A stretch of DNA of 64,000 bases from an uncultured Bacteroides sp. GTDB taxonomy: Bacteria; Bacteroidota; Bacteroidia; Bacteroidales; Bacteroidaceae. The position numbers and the translations under genes are program-made. Numbering within the stretch: the first letter of the stretch is position 1; each line of letters opens with the position of its first letter. The notes under the pieces were generated by a model. It ran no database searches, was not told where the DNA came from, and saw only the letters and a list, made by a program, of their open reading frames with translations. Positions 38,371 through 57,146 of the stretch are shown in pieces. The DNA lies in NCBI GenBank assembly GCA_947074195.1, contig CAMTOS010000002.1:20091-84090 (forward strand), given 5' to 3'.

Positions 38371-39000
38371 TCATGTTAAACTTATAATACGGTCGCCCAT
38401 TTTCTCGGCTTCATCCTTATCATGTGTCACCATAATACTGATGCCATCCATAAACTTATGGGCTTTTAAAATTTCATCCTGAAGAGATTCTCTCATTTGC
38501 CAGTCGATTGATGAAAGAGGTTCGTCAAGAAGCAAAACAGAGGGTTTCGAGGCAAGTGCACGAGCCAGTGCAACACGTTGTTTCTGGCCACCCGATAATT
38601 TAATGGGGTGTACTTTCTCAAGATTGTGCAGTCCAAATATATCAATCAGATATTTCACCATCTCTTTATCTTTTTCTTTTTGAGCATAAGATATGTTTTG
38701 CTCCACATTCATATTGGGGAAGAGGGCAAAGTCCTGAAACATATAAGCTATATTCCTTTTCTGCGGAGGCATATTCTTTTTTGTTTTCGAATCGAACCAG
38801 ATATCTTCACCGTATTTCACCATTCCTTCATCGGGCATTACCAGTCCTGCCAGGATTCTTAGCAAAGTACTCTTTCCGCTTCCCGACTGTCCCACGAGCG
38901 AGATGAATTCTCCTTTTTTAAAATCATCTTTAAATATTAGAAATCGTTCTCCTTCGGTGGTCAGCATCTTTCTTTTGATATCGATATATAATGATTTCAT
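38371..39000 (-). CDS. modC: Molybdate ABC transporter ATP-binding protein (ModC-like, no TOBE domain)
   Basis: 'LVGQSGSGKSTLLRILAG', 'LSGGQKQRVALARALASKPSVLLLDEPLSSID', next to modB. Confidence 0.85.
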   Translation of the reverse strand: MKSLYIDIKRKMLTTEGERFLIFKDDFKKGEFISLVGQSGSGKSTLLRILAGLVMPDEGMVKYGEDIWFDSKTKKNMPPQKRNIAYMFQDFALFPNMNVEQNISYAQKEKDKEMVKYLIDIFGLHNLEKVHPIKLSGGQKQRVALARALASKPSVLLLDEPLSSIDWQMRESLQDEILKAHKFMDGISIMVTHDKDEAEKMGDRIISLT

Positions 39001-39671
39001 AATCTGCGGCGTTTGTTAATGCTATAAATAGTAGTAAGTACAATAAATGAAATGATGAAGAGCGTAAAAGCATATTTGTTGGCCTGATCGTAGTTGAGCG
39101 ACTGAACTTCGTCATACAGTGCGATAGACGCAACGCGGGTATCTCCCGGCATATTTCCGCCAACCATCAGCACAATACCAAATTCTCCGATGCAGTGTGC
39201 AAAGGTCATGGCAATAGCAGTGATTATATTTCCTTTTATATTGGGCAGTAATACCCTGAAAAAAGTCTCGACTTTTCCTTTACCCATGGTATAAGATGCT
39301 TCGCGGAAACTGGTAGGGAGTAGGGTTAACCCATTCTGGAGAGGTTGTATCATATATGGAAATGAGCAGATGATACTGGCAATCAAGACTCCGGTAAATG
39401 AAAACGCAAGACGAATATTGAATGTATTTTCCAGCCACGCACCGAAAAAGTTTTGCGGACTATAAGCCACAAGAATGTAAAAACCCAGTACGGTGGGCGG
39501 TAATACCATGGGCATACATATTATAGCTTCGATAGCACTTTTACCTCTGAACTTACTGAATGAGAGAAAATAGGCTATCGGCAGTCCGATAATTAATAAA
39601 ACCACAGTTGTCCAGAAGGCTAATCGTCCTGTGGTGAGTAGGGTTTGCAGAAATTCACTGTCGGCTATCAT
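38997..39671 (-). CDS. modB: Molybdate ABC transporter permease
   Basis: 'IICMPMVLPPTVLGFYILV', 'AHCIGEFGIVLMVGGNMPGDTRVASIALYD'. Confidence 0.92.
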   Translation of the reverse strand: MIADSEFLQTLLTTGRLAFWTTVVLLIIGLPIAYFLSFSKFRGKSAIEAIICMPMVLPPTVLGFYILVAYSPQNFFGAWLENTFNIRLAFSFTGVLIASIICSFPYMIQPLQNGLTLLPTSFREASYTMGKGKVETFFRVLLPNIKGNIITAIAMTFAHCIGEFGIVLMVGGNMPGDTRVASIALYDEVQSLNYDQANKYAFTLFIISFIVLTTIYSINKRRRL

Positions 39672-39748: not shown

Positions 39749-40873
39749 TCAGATTATGCTCTGATAGATGTTTAATATTTCGCTTTCATTTAGCGAACGC
39801 TTTTTTTCAATCGATATATGTTTTACCTGTTGTAACATACGCATACCATCATCTTTTGTAATCTGTACTCCTTTCTGATGGAGAAAAGAGATCAACGCAT
39901 GACTTCCGCTATGTTTTCCAAAAACAAGTGCCGGTTGCTGCGTACCAATCATATCTGGTTTTAGAATTTGATAAGAATCCGGGTTTTTGATTATAGAGCT
40001 GGTATGAATTCCCGATTCATGACACATGGCCATTTCACCGGTAATGGGTTTTGCAACGGAGTTATTCCGGCCCGAAGCTTTTTCGACAAATGCAGATAAT
40101 TCAGAAAAGTATGCTGTATTTAATCCGCAATCATAATTCATGCTTAACTGCAATGCCATTACCAATTCTTCCAAAGGCGTATTGCCGGCACGTTCCCCAA
40201 GTCCGTTTACCGTTACGCTCACAGCCTTAGCGCCCGATGTTACGGCAGTAAGTGCATTGGCTGTAGCCATTCCCAGGTCATTGTGACCATGAAATTCAAA
40301 TATCATTTCAGGATAATCCGAAGATAACTTCCTGAAAAGCCGGGCCACGGTATACGGATTCATAATACCGACAGTATCGGCAATCCGTATTCTTGAAACT
40401 TCATTGAACTTCGCTGCCGAGATGAAATCGTTCAGGAAAGAACTGTCAGCTCTGGAGGCATCCTGTGCACCGATGCTTACAAATTCAAAACGGTCGCGGG
40501 CATATTGCGTCAAAGATTCGATGGAGTTCAGCACCCACGAGCGGCTTTTGCCTAAAAGATGAATATGCTGATCGGAAACGGGTAGCGAAATATGCACTCT
40601 CTGACAATGTGCGTTGCAAGCAGCATCAATATCTTTTTTCTTTGCCCGGCACCAGCCAAGCGATTTAAATCTGAATCCCGCATTACACAACATCCGGATG
40701 TCAGAAGCTTCTCTTTCAGACATTCCCGGCATACCGATTTCAATTTCAGGAACACCTGTTTTGTCGAGCATTTCGGCAATCTTTAGTTTTTCCTGCAATG
40801 AAAATACCACTCCGGGTGCCTGTTCGCCATCCCGGAGAGTGGTATCAACGATATGTAAAGCCAAGGGTTTCAT
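39749..40873 (-). CDS. nifV: Homocitrate synthase
   Basis: 'HIVDTTLRDGEQAPGVVFSLQEKL', 'FHGHNDLGMATANALTA', 'NGLGERAGNTPLEE'. Preferred start ATG at 40873 (ATGA overlap with upstream stop). Confidence 0.92.
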   Translation of the reverse strand: MKPLALHIVDTTLRDGEQAPGVVFSLQEKLKIAEMLDKTGVPEIEIGMPGMSEREASDIRMLCNAGFRFKSLGWCRAKKKDIDAACNAHCQRVHISLPVSDQHIHLLGKSRSWVLNSIESLTQYARDRFEFVSIGAQDASRADSSFLNDFISAAKFNEVSRIRIADTVGIMNPYTVARLFRKLSSDYPEMIFEFHGHNDLGMATANALTAVTSGAKAVSVTVNGLGERAGNTPLEELVMALQLSMNYDCGLNTAYFSELSAFVEKASGRNNSVAKPITGEMAMCHESGIHTSSIIKNPDSYQILKPDMIGTQQPALVFGKHSGSHALISFLHQKGVQITKDDGMRMLQQVKHISIEKKRSLNESEILNIYQSII

Positions 40874-41178
40874 TCGGAGATAAGGTATTTCTGACAAGCT
40901 TCTCCTTCCTCGAGCGCATCGAGAATAGCATCAATCGCATCCTCGGTTTCAACTTCACCATACCAGAAATTGTTGGGCTGAATCACGATAACCGGCCCCT
41001 GTGAACAGATATTAAGACAACCTGTGGTAGACACTGCCACATCGAGTCCGCGGTCAGAACATTCCTCCATTAAATATTGTAGCAGAGTAGGCGCTCCTTT
41101 TTTGTTGCACGCCCCTTGTGCATCTCCGGCCATGCGGAAAGAGTTGCATACCAGAATATGATAATTAGGCTTTTTCAT
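40870..41178 (-). CDS. Thioredoxin-like [2Fe-2S] ferredoxin
   Basis: 'HILVCNSFRMAGDAQGACNKKGAPTLLQYLMEECSDRGLDVAVSTTGCLNICSQGPVIVIQPNNFWYGEV'. Confidence 0.9.
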   Translation of the reverse strand: MKKPNYHILVCNSFRMAGDAQGACNKKGAPTLLQYLMEECSDRGLDVAVSTTGCLNICSQGPVIVIQPNNFWYGEVETEDAIDAILDALEEGEACQKYLISE

Positions 41179-41215
41179 TTGATGTAATTTTTAAGATTAG
41201 AATAAAATTTATTTA

Positions 41216-42499
41216 TCAGGCACAGCCCATCGCGTTTCCTTTACAACCCGAACCGCACTTAAACTCGTTTGGTTTGGCAATAGTTTTTATAGGTTTATGG
41301 TTATAAACTCCTTCAAGTCCTTCATCAATCAATCCCGTCATTTCAATTACGTTTGTACCGCAATTATTAATGATGCTTTTAGGGTTTTCGCCAACGCTGC
41401 TGACCAAAAGTGCACGGCAATCTTTAATTGTTTTGGCCAGATCAACCCATCTCTGATCACCACCACCTGCTTTGGGCAATGCCCGCATTTCTTTAAACTG
41501 AAATCCTTTAGGCGTTTGCTGATAGATATAGAGATGCATCGCTTCTCCCAAATGGAGATTCACTAACAGGCCTTCGTTGGTAGCTACGGCAACAAATGGT
41601 TTGTTGCTTAACTCTTCATCCGACGTCGTCATTACTTTTTGGAGAATATGGTACGAGTCAGATAAATCATGACCCAGCAGACCGGCTGCATCTGCACGAC
41701 AACGCGCACAATGCGACATCATGGGCAGATGTTCTTTTGAAAACTCTCTGACACGCATAATCTCTACCGGAGTTGGCTTTTCTATCTCTTCAAAAGGAGT
41801 ATCTTCGGTCGGTATTAAAGGAATACAGTTCATGATGTCAGCGCCGAGCTCTTTACATACTCTGGCAACTTCGGGGATATGTGTATCATTAATACCGGGG
41901 ATAATGATAGAGTTGATCTTTACAACAATACCATGTGCTTTCAGCAATGGAATACATTTGAGTTGTCGCTCCAGCAATAAAGCCGCTCCTGCAACACCTC
42001 TGTATACTTTCCGTTGGAAACGTACCCAGCGATAAATCCGTGCAGATATTTCAGGATCTACAGCATTGATAGTAATAGTCACATGCGTCACACCAAGAGT
42101 TGCAATCTCATCTATATGTGGTTCAAGTTCAAGTCCGTTAGACGAAAGACAGAAGATCTTTTCGGGGAATTCTTTATTAACCCTTCTGAGTGTCTCCATG
42201 GTTTCCTCGGCATTGGCAAAAGGATCGCCCGGACCAGCAATGCCTACCACAGAGATATTATCAATAACCTCAGATAATTCCTTCAGGTACATGGTAGCTT
42301 TACCGGGAGTCAGTACCCCCGATGTAACACCAGGACGGCTCTCATTTACACAATCATATTTACGGTTGCAGTAATTACACTGAATATTGCATTTCGGTGC
42401 AACCGGAAGATGAACGCGTGCATATTTATGCTTTGCATCCTCATTAAAACAAGGATGTTTATGAATATCATTTTCAGTAATTAATTTAGCCATAACCAA
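41216..42499 (-). CDS. nifB: Nitrogenase cofactor biosynthesis radical SAM protein NifB (with C-terminal NifX-like domain)
   Basis: 'HPCFNEDAKHKYARVHLPVAPKCNIQCNYCNRKYDCVNESRPGVTS', 'GPGDPFAN'; C-terminal 'KPFVAVATNEGLLVNLHLGEA'. Confidence 0.97.
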   Translation of the reverse strand: MVMAKLITENDIHKHPCFNEDAKHKYARVHLPVAPKCNIQCNYCNRKYDCVNESRPGVTSGVLTPGKATMYLKELSEVIDNISVVGIAGPGDPFANAEETMETLRRVNKEFPEKIFCLSSNGLELEPHIDEIATLGVTHVTITINAVDPEISARIYRWVRFQRKVYRGVAGAALLLERQLKCIPLLKAHGIVVKINSIIIPGINDTHIPEVARVCKELGADIMNCIPLIPTEDTPFEEIEKPTPVEIMRVREFSKEHLPMMSHCARCRADAAGLLGHDLSDSYHILQKVMTTSDEELSNKPFVAVATNEGLLVNLHLGEAMHLYIYQQTPKGFQFKEMRALPKAGGGDQRWVDLAKTIKDCRALLVSSVGENPKSIINNCGTNVIEMTGLIDEGLEGVYNHKPIKTIAKPNEFKCGSGCKGNAMGCA

Positions 42500-42504
42500 T
42501 CTTT

Positions 42505-43914
42505 TTACATGTATTTATATCCAATAGGAGAGTGCTCCTGCTTATATTCCAAGAGTGCATTGACAATGGTATCGAAGAGGTTTTGAGTACCTTCATAGCA
42601 CAAATGCTTTATGCGTGGACCGCCAACACGATCGTGAACAGGAAAACCGATGCGTACGATAGGTATACCCAGTTCGCGGGCAATGTAATACCCTTTACTA
42701 TTCCCTATAATAAAATCGGGTTTCAGCTCTTTGGCCATTTCACGGATTGTTTCGAAATCGGCACCCGAAAGGATTTCTGTATCGGTAAACATTTCCGCAT
42801 TATGCTTCAATAACTCTTTTCGCATCATTCTGCTTTCTCCGCCAGAGGCAATGATTACGGGCTTTATTCCTATTTCGGCCAAAAACAAACTCATGGCAAT
42901 AACCAGATCTTCTTCGCCGTAAACCACCGCTTTTTTACCAAAGACATATTTGTGTCCGTCAATATAGGCATCTACTAATCTGCCGCGTTGCAATGTGTAT
43001 TTTTCAGGAACCGGCTGTTGTGTTATGGCAGAGAGGGTATTCATAAAGGCATCTGTGGCCTCAATGCCAATTGGCATAATCAGCTGATGATTCTGAATAT
43101 ACATCTGCTTTTGCAACCATTCGCCTGCACTGACTACCGAAGCACGATTAAGAATAAACTCCGATACTGAACCTTTATTCAGTACGGTACCAAATTCGAT
43201 AGTGGCTACTGCTTTGCCTGTTTTCTTCAGATCCTCAACCTTAGTCCCTCCTTCAGGAATCAGATGATAATCGTTCCAGCAGGGATTATCCATAGATGCC
43301 GAATAGTCGGGAAATAAAGTATAATCAATTCCGAAATCAGTAACGATATCCTTTAGCATGCGGATATCGGCAGGAGATATAAAACCGGAAAAAAGATTAA
43401 TCCGGTTTTCTCTTTTACCTTCCTGTGCAAGTGTTTTGACGGTTGATAGAACAGCTTCATGAAAGCCATCCATGTGCGTGCCGTTGTAGCTTGGGGTCGA
43501 TGCATGTATAAATACAGGCATTGTTTTGTCGTCACCTTTCAATTCTTTATATTCGGCAATAAGCGATGGAATATCTTCTCCGATAGTTTCCGATAAACAG
43601 GTGGATGCTATTCCCATTACTGCCGGTGCATATTGCTTGCGGATATTATCAATACCGGTAATGAAATTCCGGTTACCGCCATATATAGTAGTTTCTTCGC
43701 TGAAATTTGATGATGCGATATCCATCGGCTCTTTATAATGACTGATGAGATACCGGCGAATATAAGTGGCGCATCCCTGAGAACCATGAATCATTGGGAT
43801 ACATCCTTCAATACCTTTAAATACCATAGATGCACCAAGCGGTGAACATAGCTTGCAGGCATTTCTTGATGCCGCATAAGGTTTTACTTTTGTTGTTGTT
43901 CCTTCTTTTTGCAT
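42505..43914 (-). CDS. nifN: Nitrogenase FeMo-cofactor scaffold protein NifN
   Basis: NifK-like scaffold: 'NACKLCSPLGASMVFKGIEGCIPMIHGSQGCATYIRRYLISHYKEPMDIASSNFSEE'; between nifE and nifB. Confidence 0.93.
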   Translation of the reverse strand: MQKEGTTTKVKPYAASRNACKLCSPLGASMVFKGIEGCIPMIHGSQGCATYIRRYLISHYKEPMDIASSNFSEETTIYGGNRNFITGIDNIRKQYAPAVMGIASTCLSETIGEDIPSLIAEYKELKGDDKTMPVFIHASTPSYNGTHMDGFHEAVLSTVKTLAQEGKRENRINLFSGFISPADIRMLKDIVTDFGIDYTLFPDYSASMDNPCWNDYHLIPEGGTKVEDLKKTGKAVATIEFGTVLNKGSVSEFILNRASVVSAGEWLQKQMYIQNHQLIMPIGIEATDAFMNTLSAITQQPVPEKYTLQRGRLVDAYIDGHKYVFGKKAVVYGEEDLVIAMSLFLAEIGIKPVIIASGGESRMMRKELLKHNAEMFTDTEILSGADFETIREMAKELKPDFIIGNSKGYYIARELGIPIVRIGFPVHDRVGGPRIKHLCYEGTQNLFDTIVNALLEYKQEHSPIGYKYM

Positions 43915-44049
43915 AGTGATCCATCTTTTTACATCTGTTATAATACCAAATTCATGCCAAAGAACATGTTTTTGGAAAATTAATCTCTAAGTGGCTGTAA
44001 AATAATTAATTATAATTGGTGAGGGTTTTTCCTCGTGAGGTGAGTGTCT

Positions 44050-44061
44050 TACTTTTATGTG
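44050..44061. promoter_or_regulatory. Degenerate TACAT-NN-ATGTA site (TACTTTTATGTG), 30 bp from the 44080 site
   Basis: Two mismatches to the core; start-to-start spacing of 30 bp matches the 53117/53147 pair. Confidence 0.35.
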
Positions 44062-44079
44062 ATAAGAAGTTTTAAATCT

Positions 44080-44091
44080 TACATTTATGTA
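44080..44091. promoter_or_regulatory. TACATttATGTA palindrome upstream of nifN
   Basis: Perfect TACAT-NN-ATGTA in the 181-bp nifE-nifN gap. Confidence 0.6.
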
Positions 44092-44095
44092 GCAT

Positions 44096-45421
44096 TTAAC
44101 GAACGAATTTCCATACCGGACTCATACATGTGGCATAAACTTCTTTTGCAAAATTCAGCATACCATCATAGCCGGCAAGCGGTTCTTTGCGCTCATGATT
44201 GTGGTCGCAAAATCCCAGACCAATCTTATAAGCAATAGGCCGTTCTTTAACTCCACCAATAAAAAGATCCGCTTTCGTCTCTTTTACAAAAGTTGATAGC
44301 TCCACCGGATTAGCATCATCCACAATTATCGTATCATCATCGCAAAGTTGCTGAATCAGTTTATAGTCATCCTTATCTCCCGTTTGCGATCCGATAACGA
44401 CAGTCTTAACTCCAATCAGGCGAAGAGCCTTGACTAAAGAGATAGCCTTAAATGCACCGCCAACATAAATCGCTGCACGTTTACCGTTGAGTGCTTCTTT
44501 ATACTCTGCCAGTGCCGGAATAAGACGATTCAGTTCATCGCGTACCAGTATGCGGGCTTTCTCCAATAATTCATCACTCTTAAAAAAACGGGCCACGTCA
44601 TACAGGGCATCACTCATATCCTCGATGCCAAAATAAGATACCCGCATAAAAGGAATGCCATATTTCTCTTTCATGTCTTTGGCTAAGTGCGTCATTGACC
44701 CGGAGCATTGTACAACATTCAGCTCTGCATTATGCGCATTGCGTATATCATCCACCCGGCCGTCTCCTGTTATCGTCGCATTGACATGCACACCCATTTT
44801 GCGGTAATAATCCAGTAAGATCCAGAGTTCACCTGCCAGATTGAAATCGCCCAGAATATTAATGGAATATTTAGGAACCGGTTTATCGAGCGTTCCCACT
44901 AATTTAGATAACGCTTCGCACGCCACTTTATAACCATCTTTCTTAGATCCCTGAAAGCCCGGAGCCTGTACAGGTATAATGGGTATGCCTTTTTCTTTCT
45001 CCATCTGTGAACAAAGAGATTCTACGTCATCACCAATCACACCCACAATGCATGTTGTATAAACAAATGCGGCTTTAGGCTGATGCTTTTCTATTAAGCC
45101 ATCCAGCGCCTTTCGTAGTTTTTCTATTCCTCCGAATACGATATCTCTTTCTCTTAAATCTGTCGAAAAACTTAAGCGATGTAGTTCAGGTCCCGATGAA
45201 AGAGATCCGCGGATATCCCAGGTGTAAGCTGCACAACCGATGGGACCATGAATGATATGCAGTGCATCGACAATAGGGTAGAGCACCACCCGCGAACCAC
45301 AAAAGACACATGCACGCTGGCTTACAGAACCAGCCAGACTAACTTTGCCGCAATCTATTTCCTGAGCTCCCTGACCGACACGGGAGATTTGCTTTTTTCT
45401 ACCTTCTAATATACCTTCCAT
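44096..45421 (-). CDS. nifE: Nitrogenase FeMo-cofactor scaffold protein NifE
   Basis: 'SQRACVFCGSRVVLYPIVDALHIIHGPIGCAAYTWDIRGSLSSG', 'YTTCIVGVIGDD'. Confidence 0.94.
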   Translation of the reverse strand: MEGILEGRKKQISRVGQGAQEIDCGKVSLAGSVSQRACVFCGSRVVLYPIVDALHIIHGPIGCAAYTWDIRGSLSSGPELHRLSFSTDLRERDIVFGGIEKLRKALDGLIEKHQPKAAFVYTTCIVGVIGDDVESLCSQMEKEKGIPIIPVQAPGFQGSKKDGYKVACEALSKLVGTLDKPVPKYSINILGDFNLAGELWILLDYYRKMGVHVNATITGDGRVDDIRNAHNAELNVVQCSGSMTHLAKDMKEKYGIPFMRVSYFGIEDMSDALYDVARFFKSDELLEKARILVRDELNRLIPALAEYKEALNGKRAAIYVGGAFKAISLVKALRLIGVKTVVIGSQTGDKDDYKLIQQLCDDDTIIVDDANPVELSTFVKETKADLFIGGVKERPIAYKIGLGFCDHNHERKEPLAGYDGMLNFAKEVYATCMSPVWKFVR

Positions 45422-45446
45422 AACGATAAGAATTTAATATAAATGT

Positions 45447-45486
45447 ACGGGTGAATCCCTTCCATGAAGAATAAAGAATCACCCGT
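45447..45486 (-). promoter_or_regulatory. Intercistronic hairpin between nifK and nifE
   Basis: 8-bp arms acgggtga/tcacccgt with 24-nt loop, in the 82-bp gap. Confidence 0.45.
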
Positions 45487-45503
45487 CTGATTATGGTATA
45501 AGA

Positions 45504-46889
45504 TTACATTTGGAATTCAACCTTTTCATCCGGACATACACGATCCTGATGATCCATCAATGCATTTAAGATTTGAATGGTTAGATTAATTGCACCTGTG
45601 TAGCAAGTCTTCGGAAAGTAGTTATGTCCTGCTCTGTCGGCAATCGGGAATCCAAAACGAATGAACGGGGTATCTTCATCCCGGGCAATATATTTGCCAT
45701 AGGTATTCCCAATCAATAGATCAACCCCTTCCTGTTTTATCCACTGGTGCAGCTGAAACATATCGGCATTGGCTCCGCTTTTATATTTCGCTTCGGGTAT
45801 ATCTTTTAGCAATTCAGCCATGCGTTCATCAAAAGGCTTACCGGGTGTGCCTGTAACGATATAAACTGGTTTCATATCAAGCGAAATCAGAAATTCGGTA
45901 AGTGGAATCAGTGTATCCGGGTCTCCCCATAACGCCACTCGTTTGCCATAAAAATATTTCTGATTATCAGCTATCATGTCGATAAGACGGGCACGCTCTT
46001 CTGTTATAGAATCGGGTACAGGAACATTTGCATGACGACTGAGCGACATGATGAAACGGTCGGTAGCTTTCAAACCGATGGGAATATCATCTACTTCGAA
46101 TTTCACTTTACATTTATTCTCGAGTTTGATGCAAGCATCCTGTGTGCAATACTCACCAAGTCCGATAGTAAATTTGCTGTCACCCGTAGCAATCATATCC
46201 TTTTGGGTTGTACCGCCTTTAGGATACATCACATATTTTCCGTTTAAACCGGTGTCCAGCACATCAGTCATATCGGGAAATAAAATGATGCGGGCTTCCA
46301 TCTCTTTGGCTACACGTTTAATTTCGCGCATATCCGATGGTTCCATCCATCCGGCAATGATATTCACCACATTTTTCTTTTTCGGAGTAGCAGTCGAGAA
46401 GAACTTAACGAATGCCGAAAGCTGACTGGAATAACCAGTAATATGGCTTCCCACATAAGAAGGGGTATTGCAATAGATCACCTTTTTCCCTTCAGGTATT
46501 TTACCATCTTCATTCGCTTTAGAAACAATCTGCGTAAGGTCATCTCCGATTGTTTCAGAAAGGCAAGTCGTATGTACTGCAACGATATCCGGGTTATAAA
46601 CCGTAAATATGGTATCTATGGCCTGTACAAGATTAGCTGAACCACCAAATACGGAAGAACCTTCAGAGAATGAAGAGGTTGAGGCCATTATAGGCTCCTT
46701 GAAGTGGCGTGTAAGAGTACTTCGGTGATAAGCGCAGCAACCTTGCGATCCGTGGCTATGCGGCAAGCACCCATGCAGTCCGAAAGCTGCATACATGGCC
46801 CCGATGGGCTGGCAGGTCTTTGCCGGATTAATCGTAAGAGATTTCCTTTCAATCTCCTTAGCTGTAGTATGTTTTAGTAGCATAATCAA
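45504..46889 (-). CDS. nifK: Nitrogenase MoFe protein beta subunit
   Basis: 'NPAKTCQPIGAMYAAFGLHGCLPHSHGSQGCCAYHRSTLTRHFKEPIMASTSSFSEGSSVFGG'. Confidence 0.97.
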   Translation of the reverse strand: MIMLLKHTTAKEIERKSLTINPAKTCQPIGAMYAAFGLHGCLPHSHGSQGCCAYHRSTLTRHFKEPIMASTSSFSEGSSVFGGSANLVQAIDTIFTVYNPDIVAVHTTCLSETIGDDLTQIVSKANEDGKIPEGKKVIYCNTPSYVGSHITGYSSQLSAFVKFFSTATPKKKNVVNIIAGWMEPSDMREIKRVAKEMEARIILFPDMTDVLDTGLNGKYVMYPKGGTTQKDMIATGDSKFTIGLGEYCTQDACIKLENKCKVKFEVDDIPIGLKATDRFIMSLSRHANVPVPDSITEERARLIDMIADNQKYFYGKRVALWGDPDTLIPLTEFLISLDMKPVYIVTGTPGKPFDERMAELLKDIPEAKYKSGANADMFQLHQWIKQEGVDLLIGNTYGKYIARDEDTPFIRFGFPIADRAGHNYFPKTCYTGAINLTIQILNALMDHQDRVCPDEKVEFQM

Positions 46890-46908
46890 TTTGTTTTAAG
46901 TGATTCAT

Positions 46909-48540
46909 TCAATAGGCGTATGATGCTTCCACAACTTCTTCCATTTCCCATGGCGCTTTCATTTCTTTCCAGATGGTACAACAGGCAATCTGTTCAATAT
47001 CTTTATAGAAATTAATAGCACCCTCGAAAGCGGCATATGGGCCACCATAGTCATAATTATGCAACTGTTTCAATGGAACACCCATTTTCTGTACACAGAA
47101 TTTCTCTTTAATACCGGCACAGAAGATATCTGGCTTATACATTTCGATCAGTTTCTCCATTTCATAATGACTTAAGTCATCAATCACCAGAGTTCCTTTC
47201 TGCATTTCAGCCATCATTCCTTCGTATCCGTTGAATTCAAGTCCTTCCGCAGTGAGTGCATTCAGTTCATCTTCGGTTTTACGGGCACGATATCTGGTCG
47301 GATCCTTCTCAACCGTAATTTGTTCGATGTTACGACTATCTGCATCAATTACAATGCTTGGAATTACGCGGCGTCCTTCGTAGTCATCACGGTGACCAAA
47401 TTCATAACCGGCAGCCAGAGTTGTCATGCCCAATTCATTGAAAAGTTCCTGATAATGATGAGCGCGGGAGCCACCAACAAACAACATCGCTGTTTTGCCT
47501 TTAGTCTTAAGTTTCGCTTTCTCGGCAGCTTCATTTACAGCTTTCATTTCTTCCTCAATCACTTCTTCGATTTTATCAATCAATTCCTGATCCTGGAAAT
47601 ATTTACCCACCTTTCTTAATGTTTTAGCAGTGGCTTCTGCACCAATCAGGTTAGCTTTCATCCATGGAATACCAAAAGAGGTTTCCAGCATTTCAGCCAC
47701 ATAGTTGATAGAACGATGACACATCACTAAGTTAAGATCGGCTGTATGGGCTGTCTGGAACTGATCCAGCGAAGAATTACCCGAGAAAGTAGCAACCAGT
47801 TCGATACCGCATTTTTCGAGAAGAGTTTCAATGGCAAAAGCATCCCCACCAATATTATACTCACCAAGAACATTGATGCGATATTTGAATTTGCCTTTTA
47901 CTGTATCATCCCGGCCAATCAGGTGACGCATCAGCTGATTGTTGGCAATGTGGTGACCTGCTGATTGAGATACACCACGATACCCTTCGCACGAGAAACC
48001 AAATATATTGATATCACCGCCGATCTCTTCCATCATATGGCGGGCAACACGATGCACATCATCACCAATCAGTCCCACCGGACAAGTCGAAAAGATGGCA
48101 ATCGCTCTGGGATGAAACAGTTCATAAGCTTCGCGAATGGCCTGTTTCAGCTTTTCCTCACCTCCGAATACAATGTTCGAATCCTGCATATCGGTAGAAA
48201 ATGCATAAGGAATGAAGTTTGTATTATATTCATCGGGACGGGTTTGATTTCGGCGGGTCAGCCATGAATAAAAGGCACATCCAATGGGGCCATGCGTAAT
48301 ATTAACGATGTCGCGGGTAGGTCCGAGCACCACCCCTTTACATCCTGCATAAGTACAACCACGCTGAGTAATAATTCCCGGAATGGTTCTGACATTCGCC
48401 TGAATCTCAGGAATATCATTCGGATCGTTATAAGTAATTGCCTTATTCCTCTTTTTCCCCACTTTCTTTGGATAGATCTCCAATACTTCCTCTTTAAAAG
48501 AAGCAAGAGGGGTAATTATATCTTTTTCCATTCGATTCAA
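46909..48540 (-). CDS. nifD: Nitrogenase MoFe protein alpha subunit
   Basis: 'IPGIITQRGCTYAGCKGVVLGPTRDIVNITHGPIGCAFYSW', 'FGFSCEGYRGVSQSAGHHIANN'; 543 aa. Confidence 0.97.
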   Translation of the reverse strand: MNRMEKDIITPLASFKEEVLEIYPKKVGKKRNKAITYNDPNDIPEIQANVRTIPGIITQRGCTYAGCKGVVLGPTRDIVNITHGPIGCAFYSWLTRRNQTRPDEYNTNFIPYAFSTDMQDSNIVFGGEEKLKQAIREAYELFHPRAIAIFSTCPVGLIGDDVHRVARHMMEEIGGDINIFGFSCEGYRGVSQSAGHHIANNQLMRHLIGRDDTVKGKFKYRINVLGEYNIGGDAFAIETLLEKCGIELVATFSGNSSLDQFQTAHTADLNLVMCHRSINYVAEMLETSFGIPWMKANLIGAEATAKTLRKVGKYFQDQELIDKIEEVIEEEMKAVNEAAEKAKLKTKGKTAMLFVGGSRAHHYQELFNELGMTTLAAGYEFGHRDDYEGRRVIPSIVIDADSRNIEQITVEKDPTRYRARKTEDELNALTAEGLEFNGYEGMMAEMQKGTLVIDDLSHYEMEKLIEMYKPDIFCAGIKEKFCVQKMGVPLKQLHNYDYGGPYAAFEGAINFYKDIEQIACCTIWKEMKAPWEMEEVVEASYAY

Positions 48541-48543
48541 ATT

Positions 48544-48909
48544 TTAGTCAAGTGTTTTGTCACCTGTTTCACCTGTTCTGATGTGAACAGAATCCACTGT
48601 ATCTATCACAAAAATCTTACCGTCTCCGCTCGATCCGGTCTGATTCGTTTTGATAATGGTCTCTAAAGCCAGATCTTTTTTTTCATCAGTAACCACAAGC
48701 GAAATCATTCTTTTCGATTTTAATCGCGGCATTTCAGAAATCAAATCTCTCAGGGCAGGATCATACTTATCTGCTTTCTCAAGGTCACCATGTCCTTTAC
48801 CTCTGCCGAGCACAGGCATAACGGTGAACGATGGCAGACCAGCTTCCTGAAGGGCATTTTTAGTATCCTGCATTTTGGCTATCCGGAGAATTGCTAATAT
48901 TAATTTCAT
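48544..48909 (-). CDS. nifI2: PII-family nitrogenase regulator NifI2
   Basis: PII-like 'GRGKGHGDLEKADKYDP', 'GSSGDGKIFVIDTVDSVHIRTGE'; located between nifH and nifD. Confidence 0.92.
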   Translation of the reverse strand: MKLILAILRIAKMQDTKNALQEAGLPSFTVMPVLGRGKGHGDLEKADKYDPALRDLISEMPRLKSKRMISLVVTDEKKDLALETIIKTNQTGSSGDGKIFVIDTVDSVHIRTGETGDKTLD

Positions 48910-48926
48910 AGATCTTTAACTTTAGA

Positions 48927-49253
48927 TTATTTATCCATTTTACCCGATGAAATGGTATAAGTCTCTTCTACCGGAGTAACAAATATTTTACCATCACCAA
49001 ACTGACCCTCCGGACCCGAACGTGCGGCATCCATAATCGTTTCGACAACATAATCCTTGTCTGCTTCCGGAATTACAATCATCAGGAGGTCTTTAGGCAA
49101 TTCGTCATAAGTCACGTTTCCTACTTTCAATCCTCGTTGTCGTCCGCGTCCGAATACCGAAAGTTTCGTTACGGCGGGAAAGCCTGCATTAAATAAAGCG
49201 GCCATGACAACTGGCGATTTTTCTGGTCTCACAATGGCTCTTAAAAGATACAT
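48927..49253 (-). CDS. nifI1: PII-family nitrogenase regulator NifI1
   Basis: 'MYLLRAIVRPEKSPVVMAALFNAGFPAVTKLSVFGRGRQRG', 'GQFGDGKIFVTPVEETYTISSG'. Confidence 0.93.
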   Translation of the reverse strand: MYLLRAIVRPEKSPVVMAALFNAGFPAVTKLSVFGRGRQRGLKVGNVTYDELPKDLLMIVIPEADKDYVVETIMDAARSGPEGQFGDGKIFVTPVEETYTISSGKMDK

Positions 49254-49277
49254 AGTATTTTCTCCTATTTATTTTGG

Positions 49278-50114
<837 letters not shown>

Positions 50115-50397: not shown

Positions 50398-51153
50398 TTA
50401 TTCACCTGCCGGAGATGCATAACCATATTTCTCCCACACCTCTTTTGTGGCCGGAGATAATACATAGTTCATAAACTTCTTCGCTTCAGGATTAGCGGCA
50501 TTCTGTTTAATAAGAATACAAGCCTGTTCAATTGGCGTATACATCGATTGTGGAATAACATATGCTTTACCTTTTTCAGTCATTTCGGGTGACAGAGCAA
50601 GCGATAAAGCAACAAAACCAACTTCTGCATTACCGGTATATGCAAACTGTGCAGCCTGAGAGATGTTATCGGCAAATACAATTTTTGGTTTTAATATTTC
50701 ATAAAGATCCTCTTTCTTCAGTAATTCAATCGATCTTTCGCCATAAGGTGCTGTTTCGGGTTTAGCTATCGAAATCTTTTTAACAGCAGGTTCAGTCAGA
50801 ACTGAAAGACCTTTATCAACGTCAACAGAAGTACTATACATCGCAAGTTTTCCGAAAGCATATGTTTTCATATCGCCATAAGTAACCCCTTTCTCTTTCA
50901 GTTTAAGTGGAAAGCTATTGTCTGCAGCCATAAAGAAATTGAAATTGGCTCCATTTAGAATCTGTTGTACCAGATTTCCCGAGGCACCGAATGTAATGTT
51001 TATCTTGCTACCGGGATTCACCTTTTCATAATCATTCTTTATTTCCTCAAGCACATATCTGAGATTGGCGGCAGCAGCCACATTCACTTTTTGTGCATTC
51101 ACTGTAAATACAACTGCAAAAAGCAAGCTGATTAAAAACATTGTTTTTTTCAT
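50398..51153 (-). CDS. modA: Molybdate ABC transporter substrate-binding protein
   Basis: Signal peptide; 'VNVAAAANLRYVLEEIKNDYEKVNPGSKINITFGASGNLVQQI', 'ETAPYGERSIELL'. Confidence 0.94.
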   Translation of the reverse strand: MKKTMFLISLLFAVVFTVNAQKVNVAAAANLRYVLEEIKNDYEKVNPGSKINITFGASGNLVQQILNGANFNFFMAADNSFPLKLKEKGVTYGDMKTYAFGKLAMYSTSVDVDKGLSVLTEPAVKKISIAKPETAPYGERSIELLKKEDLYEILKPKIVFADNISQAAQFAYTGNAEVGFVALSLALSPEMTEKGKAYVIPQSMYTPIEQACILIKQNAANPEAKKFMNYVLSPATKEVWEKYGYASPAGE

Positions 51154-51189
51154 AACATTTATTCTTTTAGAGTTTTAATACCTATGAAT

Positions 51190-52497
51190 TTATTTTTTAC
51201 TTAATAGCTGGAGTGCCACCGATGGTTTGATAGATATACTTGCATAAGCCCATTGCGGAGTTCTGATTTTCTCGCCCGCTACACCTTTAATGATTTTCAG
51301 ATTATCGTTTACAAAATAGATGCTATAGCCAGCTTCCAAAGATAGCCACGTATAAGCTTTATGTTTAAAAGTGAAATCGAGTTCGCTACCGATTTTCTTT
51401 CCGTCAAGATTAGAAACCTGAACCCCGGTTTTAAAGTAGTGATAATTGCCTTCGATAGTGGTACGTCCTTTCTTGAAATCGAGCAGGAATCCTCCGTATA
51501 AATCCTGCAAACCACGATTACCGGTATTGTTCCAGTAGTCCATCGATCCATTGAAGTCATGATGGCCTCTGAACAAATGGATGAAGCCACGCTGAATACC
51601 ATTATTCGGATTCTTATCTCCCGAGATATATTCATAACCGGCCGCAAGAGAGAATACCGGACAGAATTTATATGATCCATTTGCTACAAGATAATAACTT
51701 TTCAATTTATCAAGAGCACCTTTATAGATTACCTTACCTCTCTGATAATAAGCTTCAGCCATTAATTTTAAAGGGAATGATTGCGGGCTATAGCTTACAG
51801 TTCCCCCCATGGTATATTGTGTATAGTGATGATACGTTTTATAATTGTTTTTGCCTTCGGTAGCAATGGTATCCTGTGCAGAAAGAGCAACTCCGATGGC
51901 AGTAACAGTCACATCGTCGCCAAACTTCTTAGACATCCACAGCAATTCCATGAAACGATATTTCATTGCCGGCGTATAGTATGATTCATGAGAAATTGCA
52001 CTGTTGTTTGAATAGGAGAATCCTCCATCAATCATGAAATCATTATCCAGATTATACTTCAATAAAATCATGTCGAATGCATTCCCGGTATTACTCCAGT
52101 TGGCCGGACTAAATAGTTTACGATTATCGTATCTTAATGGCTGACGACCTACCCTGGCCACAAAACCCGGTAACATCAGAATTTCACCCCAGGCTTCATA
52201 TACTCCTATAGAGGGATTGTCAACATTGTGTCCTCCTTCGCCCCAGGTGCGTGCATCTTGCAGAGTGACTTGCATTTTAACCAGACTATTAGAAAAAGTA
52301 GCTCCGAATCTGGTTCTTTGCTGTACAAAGAAACCACTTCTGTTGTCCGATGTAATAGGCGAACCATATCCATCTCTGTATTCCGCCCTCGGGCGAATTT
52401 CCCCAAAAATTGTAAGATTCTGTGCCTGAGTAATTGCGCACATCAATAATGTTAATCCCAGAAATAATCCTCTTTTAAATACCCATTTTTTTTTCAT
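51190..52497 (-). CDS. Outer-membrane beta-barrel porin of alginate-export type, in the mod gene group
   Basis: Signal peptide; 'NLTIFGEIRPRAEYRDGYGSPITSDNRSGFFVQQRTRFGATFSNSLVKMQVTLQDARTWGE'; 36 bp upstream of modA on the same strand. Confidence 0.8.
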   Translation of the reverse strand: MKKKWVFKRGLFLGLTLLMCAITQAQNLTIFGEIRPRAEYRDGYGSPITSDNRSGFFVQQRTRFGATFSNSLVKMQVTLQDARTWGEGGHNVDNPSIGVYEAWGEILMLPGFVARVGRQPLRYDNRKLFSPANWSNTGNAFDMILLKYNLDNDFMIDGGFSYSNNSAISHESYYTPAMKYRFMELLWMSKKFGDDVTVTAIGVALSAQDTIATEGKNNYKTYHHYTQYTMGGTVSYSPQSFPLKLMAEAYYQRGKVIYKGALDKLKSYYLVANGSYKFCPVFSLAAGYEYISGDKNPNNGIQRGFIHLFRGHHDFNGSMDYWNNTGNRGLQDLYGGFLLDFKKGRTTIEGNYHYFKTGVQVSNLDGKKIGSELDFTFKHKAYTWLSLEAGYSIYFVNDNLKIIKGVAGEKIRTPQWAYASISIKPSVALQLLSKK

Positions 52498-52532
52498 AAT
52501 AATACCATTTAAATTTATGTTTGAAAACGTGT

Positions 52533-52653
52533 CGTTATATTTAAAGAGGATAACGGTTCTTTTAAAAAAAGGATAAACCGTTATCCTCTATAAATTCTAT
52601 TGAAAACCTATTAAGCAAGCCTTTTAAAAACGTTATTCTTTTTGCAGATAACG
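52533..52653. promoter_or_regulatory. Cluster of five CGTTAT/ATAACG half-sites including two inverted repeats (candidate ModE operators)
   Basis: cgttat 52533, ataacg 52550, cgttat 52579, cgttat 52631, ataacg 52648; 14-bp arms agaggataacggtt (52545-52558)/aaccgttatcctct (52576-52589). Confidence 0.5.
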
Positions 52654-52666
52654 ATACACAAAAAAA

Positions 52667-53017
52667 TTATAATACACATTTCTGCATGTCCATATTCGTG
52701 TGTTCCAGATACTGATTGAAATCTTTTATCTTATATTCAAAGAGTCTTAAAATTGCTTTGCCGTAATTGCTGACAGTACAGCCACCTCCTCCTGATCCTC
52801 CTTTTTGTCGTATTACAATAGGAATAGGTGAAACTCTGTTTAGCTGATCTATAAGATTCCATGCCTGCTGATAAGACATCCCTTTTCTTTTTGCTGCCGC
52901 GTTAATAGATCCTTCTTCGAGTATCAGTTTTAAAAGTGTGTAATGTGACATGCCTAAAAACAATTCTTCACCTTTATAAATTGCAATAGCTCCGTTAATC
53001 TGAAAAACATTTTCCAT
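52667..53017 (-). CDS. ModE N-terminal-like winged-helix regulator lacking Mop domains
   Basis: 'MSHYTLLKLILEEGSINAAAKRKGMSYQQAWNLIDQLNR...GGSGGGGCTVSNYGKAIL' typical of ModE N-terminal HTH; 116 aa only. Confidence 0.88.
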   Translation of the reverse strand: MENVFQINGAIAIYKGEELFLGMSHYTLLKLILEEGSINAAAKRKGMSYQQAWNLIDQLNRVSPIPIVIRQKGGSGGGGCTVSNYGKAILRLFEYKIKDFNQYLEHTNMDMQKCVL

Positions 53018-53042
53018 AATGCATCATTTTACATAATTTATA

Positions 53043-53059
53043 TAACTAAAATCGTGCCA
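53043..53059 (-). promoter_or_regulatory. sigma54-like promoter candidate upstream of the modE-like gene
   Basis: Minus strand TGGCACG-ATTT-TAGTT (-24 perfect, -12 poor); sequence context resembles the nifH site (cgtgccAaAATG vs cgtgccAtAATG). Confidence 0.35.
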
Positions 53060-53116
53060 AAATGATATGTAATTGTAAATCAGTAGTATATGTGTTAAGT
53101 GCGCTTGGTGAACAAT

Positions 53117-53315: not shown

Positions 53316-54881
53316 ATGGGAAATCTATGTATTAACAGGGTAAGGGAAGAATGTGAAGTAAAGAAAGATCTAAATCTCTTGTTACAAATAAGTAACGAAC
53401 TTAATGCTACCGATCTGAATATTGATGTGGTTATTGACTTGCTTCAAAAACAACTTAAAGCAGATACAATTATGATTTCTGTGCTCAACAGAAAAAAGGA
53501 ATTAATATACGTTGAGGGTGCATATGGTTTAAACAATAAAGATCTTACAAACATCACCTATAAACCGGGTGAGGGTGTAATAGGGAACGTCATTCAAACA
53601 GGAAAAATGATTATTGTTCCCTGCATTTCAGATTGCAAAGAATTTATTAATAAAATTGGGCTGCCTTATAAAATCGATAATCTTGATGTCTCTTTTTTGT
53701 GTATTCCGTTGAAAGAGAAAAATGAGATTATTGGTGCATTAAGCATTCATAAAGTTTATCGTGGTGTTCCTAATTTTAATGATAATATGCAGTTGCTTTC
53801 TATCGTAGGATCAATGATTGCACGTGCAGTGCGTCGCCGGCAAAAAAATCACGAAGCAATTGATGAACTCCGAAAAGAAAACAGTATGCTCAAACAAGCC
53901 ATTACCGAGCGTACTTTTAAAGGTATTGTTGGTAACTCCGGGAAGCTGCACGAAGTATTCAGATTAATCCAAAGTGTGGCACCAACTCAAACCACAGTCT
54001 TAATTCGTGGTGAAAGTGGAGTAGGTAAAGAGCTTATTGCAGATGCTATTCATTTCAATAGTAAGCGTAGCACAAAGCCTTTCATAAAAGTAAACTGTGC
54101 TGCATTGCCTGATAACTTAATTGAAAGTGAGCTTTTCGGTTATGAGAAAGGAGCATTCACCGGAGCTACCACTCAGCGAATAGGTCGGTTTGAAGCTGCA
54201 AACGGCGGAACTATCTTTCTTGATGAATTTGGCGATATTCCGTTATCCACACAGGTAAAATTGTTGCGTGTTCTGCAAGAGCGTCAGATCGAAAGAATTG
54301 GTGGAAATAAATCTATCAATGTAGATGTGCGCGTAATATGTGCTACAAATAAAGATCTGGAGAAAATGATTGCTGAAAATACTTTCAGAGAAGATTTATA
54401 TTATCGTATAAATGTTTTCCCGATCTACACGCCGCCATTGCGTGAAAGACTCCATGATATTCCTACACTTGTCAATTACTTTATCGATAAGTTTAATAAA
54501 CAGAATGGACGAACCATAAAGAGAATCACAGCATCTGCAATAGATTCGCTTATGGTCTATCACTGGCCCGGTAATATTCGCGAACTCGAGAACTGTATTG
54601 AACGCTGTTGTATTCTTTCTACAGATGATGTCATACATTCATATAACTTACCGCCAACCATACAGAATGCTTCATCGAGCAAAACCGAACATCAGGGCAC
54701 GCTCGAAGTGATACTCGATAAATTAGAGAAACAGATTATTCATGATACGCTGATAACCACCAAAGGTAATATTACAAAAGCGGCTGGTATTTTAGGCATC
54801 ACCGAACGAATGATGGGTTTACGAATAAAGAAATATAATATGGAGCCGAGAATCTTTAAAACTCATGAGGGTAAAAATTGA
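53316..54881 (+). CDS. NifA-like sigma54-dependent transcriptional activator (GAF-AAA+-Fis HTH)
   Basis: GAF domain; '[15 protein letters not shown]', '[18 protein letters not shown]' (GAFTGA loop), '[14 protein letters not shown]', Fis-type HTH '[24 protein letters not shown]'. Confidence 0.94.
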
Positions 54882-55844: not shown

Positions 55845-57146
55845 CTAATCTTTCTTTTTCTTAATCACATTAAGCGCCACCGATGGGTTGAGGTTAATAC
55901 TGCCATATACCCATTGTGCCAGGCGTGTTTTTTCTCCCGATGCTCCTTTTAGAATGCGTACATTTTCGTTTGTAAAATAGATATCATAGCCTATTTCAAA
56001 CTTTAGCCATGAATTCTGTTTATGCTTAACGATAAAATCGAGCTCATAACCCAGTTTCTTTCCTTTAAGATTCTTAACAGGAACAGCTGTTTTAAAATGA
56101 TGGAAAATGCCCTCTATAGATGTACGCTTTTTATTTAGTTCAAATAGAACACCTGCATATACATCCTGTAAACCTCTTTCGCCGGTATTCGTCCAATAGT
56201 CCATCGTCCCGTTAAAATCGTGTGTATCGCCAAAAAGATGCATATATCCACGCTGAATACCGTTATCCGGATTTCTGTCGCCAGAAATATATTCATAACC
56301 TGCTGCTACCGAAAGCCATGGTAAAAACTCATAAGATGCATTCCCGACAATGTAATAACTTTTTAGGCGGTCTAACGCATCTTTATAAACCACTCTGCCA
56401 TACTGATAATAGCCTTCAAACATAAGTTGGAGTGGAAAGGATGAAGGGGTATAGCGGAAAGTACCACCTATCGTTCCCTGATTATAATATTTCCGTTTTT
56501 TATAATTCTCTTTACCACCAACAGATATAGTGTCCTGATTAGACAGGATCGCCCCGATGGCCGATAGAGTAATATCTTTAGTAATGTTTTTCGACATCCA
56601 GAACATTCCCATAATTCTGTATATCATTTCAGTCTGATAATATGTTTCCTCAGAAATATCATTATTGTTAGAATAAGAAAAACCTGCATGAACTTTAAAA
56701 TCATCATTAAGCTCATATTTCAGCAGCAACATATCAAATGCATTACCAGAATCCGACCAATCTGATGGTCCGAAGAGTTTTCGGTCATCATATTGTAGTA
56801 CTTGTCTGCCCACTTTTGCCTGGAATCCCGGAAGAATGTCAAATAAAGCCCATGCCTGGTATAAACCAACTGACGGATTATCCGTATCATCCGATGAATC
56901 GCCCCATACACGCGAGTCCTGGAAAGTCACTTCCATTTCAATGAAATCATAAGTGAAATTCGCTCCTATTCGGGTCCTTTGTTTTACGAAGAAGCCACCT
57001 TTATTACTGGTTATAATGGGTTTTGCATAACCATCTCTGTATTCAGCTCTGGGTCTTACCTCACCAAAGATTGTCAAATCCTGTGTATAGACAAATCCGG
57101 CACAACACATCAGAAGGGCACACAACCATATACGTTTCGCTTTCAT
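55845..57146 (-). CDS. Outer-membrane alginate-export-type porin, paralogue of 51190..52497
   Basis: 'DLTIFGEVRPRAEYRDGYAKPIITSNKGGFFVKQRTRIGANFTYDFIEMEVTFQDSRVWGD'; near collinear with the mod-linked porin. Confidence 0.8.
   Translation of the reverse strand: MKAKRIWLCALLMCCAGFVYTQDLTIFGEVRPRAEYRDGYAKPIITSNKGGFFVKQRTRIGANFTYDFIEMEVTFQDSRVWGDSSDDTDNPSVGLYQAWALFDILPGFQAKVGRQVLQYDDRKLFGPSDWSDSGNAFDMLLLKYELNDDFKVHAGFSYSNNNDISEETYYQTEMIYRIMGMFWMSKNITKDITLSAIGAILSNQDTISVGGKENYKKRKYYNQGTIGGTFRYTPSSFPLQLMFEGYYQYGRVVYKDALDRLKSYYIVGNASYEFLPWLSVAAGYEYISGDRNPDNGIQRGYMHLFGDTHDFNGTMDYWTNTGERGLQDVYAGVLFELNKKRTSIEGIFHHFKTAVPVKNLKGKKLGYELDFIVKHKQNSWLKFEIGYDIYFTNENVRILKGASGEKTRLAQWVYGSINLNPSVALNVIKKKKD

Follow-up and report, generated by a model that had tools for sequence, protein, structure and literature searches.

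The passage of molybdate across the outer membrane is usually ascribed to general porins. Dedicated porins that are partnered with inner-membrane uptake and induced by scarcity include OprP/OprO (phosphate), OprD/Occ and chitoporin; the candidate porin described here would be alike in its way of working, by analogy, although it comes from a different family. The only outer-membrane molybdate partner that we met in the literature searched is IcmP of Pseudomonas aeruginosa, which partners the T6SS-secreted ModA in the route T6SS-ModA-IcmP (reviewed in PMC8602904), and no dedicated molybdate porin is named in the open-access literature searched, which is weak evidence of absence. A Bacteroidetes nifHDKENB cluster with modABC nearby has already been described, with the remark that the order of mod genes is not always conserved (Inoue et al. 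2015, PMC4356463); in that paper, which reports nif genes in B. graminisolvens among others, no mention of a porin, alginate or the outer membrane was found. Two further reference points are AlgE of P. aeruginosa and the B. thetaiotaomicron protein BT1414, an "alginate export family protein" within the nrfAH operon (PMC10434189).

We analyzed a 64 kb stretch of DNA (the window, at its full length) that contains a porin of the Alginate_exp family (51190-52497, minus strand) next to molybdate transport genes. Judging from sequence and gene context, this porin is a good candidate for a dedicated molybdate entry channel of nitrogen-fixing Bacteroides and their relatives. We assign a probability of about 0.74 to the mechanism as a whole, i.e., that the porin is the 18-stranded outer-membrane entry step of ModE-controlled ModABC molybdate uptake. 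The open reading frames on the minus strand lie in the order read in the initial annotation, at exactly the same positions: a modE-like gene (52667-53017; TIGR00637 E=1e-21, below its cutoff), the porin, and modA (50398-51153; TIGR01256 equivalog E=1.4e-58, above cutoff; PF13531), encoding the periplasmic molybdate-binding protein, with the 36 bp between porin and modA that had been reported. Downstream of modA, on the same strand, are nifH-nifI1-nifI2-nifD-nifK-nifE-nifN-nifB-nifV (39749-50102) and then modB (38997-39671) and modC (38371-39000), which end the nif cluster. The sigma-54 activator gene nifA (53316-54881, plus strand; GAF, AAA and HTH_8 domains) is divergent. A second porin copy (porinB, 55845-57146, minus strand), 59% identical to the first, is located outside the mod operon, beyond nifA and 2.8 kb from modE; a third, weak paralogue with 27% identity is encoded elsewhere in the genome, in a CcsA/ResB setting.

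The initial annotation had made the presence of the porin with modA in other genomes a deciding point, and this co-occurrence was found across several Bacteroidales families. Among 201 genomes drawn from the family (Bacteroidaceae), modA was present in 10, each with a close nifH (10/10), and the porin was directly upstream of modA in 9/9 assessable loci; one of these nine porins is cut by a contig end, and the modA of the tenth genome is itself cut by a contig edge. The order modE-porin-modA recurs in the same genus (G072, G503, G517, G545, G559 and G573, and, from a separate genus draw, G585, G633, G645, G651 and G670) and in G167, which belongs to a different genus. When 295 genomes were drawn at the order level, modA was found in 22 and the porin beside modA in 8, namely the window genome, G072, and G849, G747, G708, G733, G923 and G885, the last six representing five other Bacteroidales families. 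The arrangement modE-porin-modA is also present in G150, outside the order Bacteroidales, and modE lies upstream in every porin-modA case from the other families and G150 where a longer region was annotated. In the phylum-level draw, the best 30 modA loci, including lineages outside Bacteroidia, contained no family member beside modA except for two known Bacteroides. Homologues of modBC follow modA in G517, G167, G885, G708, G733 and G923.

Some loci have modE and modA without a porin between them: modE is directly before modA in G246, and a TrmO-domain gene separates the two in G810 and G790. The porin is therefore dispensable for nif/mod loci; nifH was found in G246 and G810. The flanks of the porin-less modA loci were scanned for another outer-membrane protein; most of the genes there encode unrelated enzymes, MoeA, a tRNA synthetase or secreted proteins, and three gave no informative matches. 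In four genomes, a TrmO_N-domain gene directly follows modE within the mod operon (L137:14589-15122, L138:9617-10117, L155:9753-10238 and L107:2254-2817).

The region between modE and the porin contains two ModE-type palindromes, CGTTAT-N11-ATAACG (52533-52555 and 52631-52653, unstranded), and the window has no other CGTTAT-N3..30-ATAACG palindrome; for a broader search that included the inverted arrangement, 0.45 matches are expected per window. Thus, the candidate ModE sites that had been noticed in front of the porin are real, and the case for them is stronger than was claimed. The half-sites agree with the Escherichia coli ModE consensus ATCGNTATATA-N6-TATATANCGAT (quoted in PMC545781), with a spacing that is mostly one base shorter. 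A palindrome with an N10-12 spacer is located near the porin in 16 of the 19 mod-linked loci under the strict pattern and in 17 of the 19 when one position per half-site is left free; beyond these 17, a palindrome in G733 precedes a trmO-porin-modA operon, and G747 has two sites (read to the contig end). Loci with non-mod homologues, including porinB and three unlinked close copies, have none (0/58; Fisher p=7e-14 for mod-linked versus non-mod loci, a value that ignores shared ancestry). In the porin-less G246, the palindrome is directly before modA; therefore, the predicted operator appears to mark the start of the transport operon. It should be noted that the genome-wide count is not significant alone, with 3 sites in the window's genome versus 3 for the reversed control; the weight of the evidence for the putative operator is in its position and conservation. 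The third and last strict palindrome of this genome is on contig C51 (19658-19680). At three modA loci outside the class (L176:2507, L179:259 and L182:3319), palindromes close to that of E. coli, CGTTAT...TATAACG, were observed, and no porin of the Alginate_exp family was found in their flanks.

The ModE-like protein of the window consists of 116 aa and, according to Pfam/TIGR profiles, has the HTH without the molybdate-binding TOBE domain, and so differs from full-length ModE, which combines HTH and C-terminal TOBE domains. A separate TOBE protein is present in the loci of G708, G733 and G923, and it is possible that such a protein and the TOBE-less ModE form a split molybdate sensor. Stand-alone TOBE-domain proteins encoded between modA and modB were located at L137:11926-12339, L138:12631-13065 and L139:9607-10008. 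Upstream of modE, on the minus strand, there is an element resembling the -24 part of sigma-54 promoters (TTTGGCACGATTTTAGT, 53041-53060), and a similar element is found upstream of nifH in the window (~50184). In loci where nifA is the neighbor, the motif TGGCA[C/T] is found again upstream of modE; upstream of nifH, it is present in 9/9 loci examined. Because the -12 part of the element is weak in the window, we infer control of modE-porin by NifA only provisionally. The porin leader on the minus strand folds into a hairpin with a 14-bp stem (52545-52589), which overlaps the porin-proximal palindrome (52533-52555). The 163-nt leader has an MFE of -35.8 (z=-3.95), and 0/200 shuffled sequences folded as well; this hairpin may be an attenuator or a structured operator.

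The phylogenetic tree of 81 porin proteins (quick IQ-TREE, SH-aLRT support only) places 19 of the 20 mod-linked porins in one clade of 25 (99% SH-aLRT), which additionally contains 4 unlinked close copies and 2 pst-linked porins. The twentieth, from G150, is a long branch adjoining the clade. On this tree, the mod label requires 3 changes, compared to a mean of 18.1 for shuffled labels (0/500 shuffles as low). PorinB forms a group with three further unlinked copies (98% support), and a duplicate from the mod-linked lineage is therefore the best interpretation of it. Its relatives are not linked to mod; one (L150) lies close to an RNA-binding-protein gene block that the window has too. For the unlinked copies of G630 and G661, no modA or nifH was found in genomes that are 84% and 62% complete, respectively, and a pattern search of genome contigs returned one close copy only, which is unlinked.

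The porin matches PF13372 (E=8.5e-17; 61.5 bits versus a gathering cutoff of 25.2) over residues 32-396. The AlphaFold2 model, for which 70 family members were aligned, has about 18 strands, a mean pLDDT of 88.5 and a pTM of 0.84. A family-profile sequence search of solved structures gave no relevant entry; in the Foldseek search with the model, the top solved-structure matches were all AlgE (4xnk/3rbh, TM 0.62-0.64, 12-14% identity), and chitoporin, MOMP and OprD-type porins came next. The porin thus resembles AlgE in its PF13372 match, predicted 18-strand barrel and lumen-facing arginines, and differs from it in the low identity, in the likely role as an importer of a small oxyanion, and in its place in a mod operon with a ModE-type operator. 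Both in the window and at the linked loci, the neighbors are mod and nif genes, not alginate (alg) biosynthesis genes. The suspicion that an annotation by homology conceals the role of this protein was borne out, since the family match says alginate export, yet the porin stands among mod/nif genes behind a ModE-type palindrome. The porin has the conserved linkage to modA that a molybdate-specific porin would have, a conserved ModE-type operator predicted directly upstream, as for a member of the ModE regulon, and, in its model, the 18-stranded AlgE-like barrel of the Alginate_exp family.

Pore-facing positions were assigned on the model by strand parity, which is approximate. The arginines R35, R37, R41, R61 and R63 are predicted to face the pore, R118 and R127 are likewise conserved family-wide, and such a cluster suits an anion channel. 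As to the pore charge, to which the initial annotation had pointed, the predicted lumenal arginine cluster is common to the whole family, and the net lumen charge of the mod clade (+2.5) is not distinct from that of the other members (+2.8) under this approximate assignment. Therefore, molybdate selectivity cannot be read from sequence alone, and pore charge was dropped as a sign of it. The differences of the mod clade fall in predicted extracellular loops, at positions 401, 412, 139 and 314: positions 401 and 412 are mostly basic in the mod clade versus acidic or mixed in the rest, and N139 and S314 of the mod clade correspond to R and K in other members.

In the mechanism that we favor, the porin would be the first structural gene of a ModE-controlled transport operon. 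Scarcity of molybdate would lift the repression exerted by the HTH-only ModE and lead to joint synthesis of the porin and ModA; where the operon is linked to nif, expression during nitrogen fixation is probably boosted by a NifA/sigma-54-type promoter upstream of modE. Molybdate would then diffuse through the arginine-lined, anion-preferring pore into the periplasm, to be caught by ModA and imported by ModBC. The initial annotation had suggested a specific outer-membrane step tied to nitrogen fixation. The specific step is the best reading, because the porin is conserved as a member of the mod operon, together with the palindrome, across families; the tie to nitrogen fixation did not hold, given that in G923 modE-porin-modA-TOBE-modBC is 1.58 Mb from nifH on one contig. 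The porin therefore belongs to mod, with nif as a genomic companion. The same distance, and the position of modBC between modA and nifH in G517, G167 and G885, make it very improbable that the porin belongs to the nif system itself and passes another nitrogenase-related solute rather than molybdenum, even though it adjoins the nif cluster in many genomes. A hitch-hiker or an exporter, for example of polysaccharide, with no part in molybdenum uptake would agree with the family name and with AlgE being the closest solved fold; we consider this unlikely, since the recurring neighbors are mod and nif and not polysaccharide genes, several families share the synteny and the operator, and the identity to AlgE is as low as noted above. 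ModA-type proteins commonly bind both molybdate and tungstate, which leaves some room for tungstate as the physiological substrate, instead of or besides molybdate; the association with Mo-nitrogenase, i.e., the close nifH in all ten modA genomes of the Bacteroidaceae draw, makes this quite unlikely.

The alternative that deserves most weight, with a likelihood somewhat short of even, is a general oxyanion or small-anion porin under ModE control that raises the permeability to anions, molybdate included, without preferring molybdate. This alternative is compatible with an entry role and contests selectivity only. In its favor, most of the arginine cluster is shared by mod-linked and other homologues, and the latter are found with genes for other anions. 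For example, a pstC-pstA-pstB-porin operon is present in G409 (L144:6423-10420) and, by resemblance, in G433 (L040), and this pst-linked pair inside the mod-linked clade is a candidate phosphate porin. A family member lies beside nrtBCD-like genes in G262 (L146). NarK-like MFS genes are neighbors at 11 loci according to clustering and at 10 on the tree, in some cases along with a gene for a MoaA-like radical SAM protein. Clustering gave 3 loci with a gene resembling nitrite reductase, of which the one scanned encodes a multicopper oxidase with cytochrome c. The labels "NarK" and "nitrite reductase" come from resemblance and context, Pfam backing MFS_1 and multicopper oxidase only. CcsA/ResB nrf-type operons with a family member were found at 12 loci, including that of the third copy in the window's genome (L003). 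BT1414 has the same annotated family and a setting similar to that of this third copy; its nitrite-reduction locus differs from mod, and the members linked to CcsA/ResB cluster separately in the tree and have no ModE-type palindrome (PMC10434189 for BT1414). Against a general anion porin, the distinct mod clade with its own predicted loop changes hints at specialization.

Oxyanions are the theme that these neighborhoods appear to share, and the wider group, given its relatives in pst, nrt, NarK-like MFS and nrf/ccs loci, therefore resembles a set of oxyanion porins for which "alginate export" is a misnomer. A further group of 11 loci from the same bacterial family (L047, L049, L050, L052, L053 and L055-L060), beside SpoIIE-type phosphatase/anti-sigma-factor-antagonist genes, stands apart from this theme, with no oxyanion link seen among the neighbors. 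We tentatively suggest, at rather less than even odds, that the molybdate-selective porin is one branch of the transporter-partnered oxyanion porins of Bacteroidota, whose selectivity was retuned on recruitment to different operons, the partners being ModABC for molybdate, PstCAB for phosphate, NrtBCD for nitrate and Nrf for nitrite, all under the name "alginate export". If the reading of a dedicated molybdate channel is true, a ModE-controlled channel in diazotrophic Bacteroidales would make the outer-membrane step of molybdate uptake testable and would bear on nitrogen fixation in Mo-poor habitats. The widespread proteins annotated "alginate export" could be re-read, too: they are likely to be oxyanion porins, each with a substrate predicted by its operon partners. 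At one locus (L145, G046), modABC was observed divergent from moeA-porin and a gene for a large DMSO-reductase/NarG-like molybdoenzyme.
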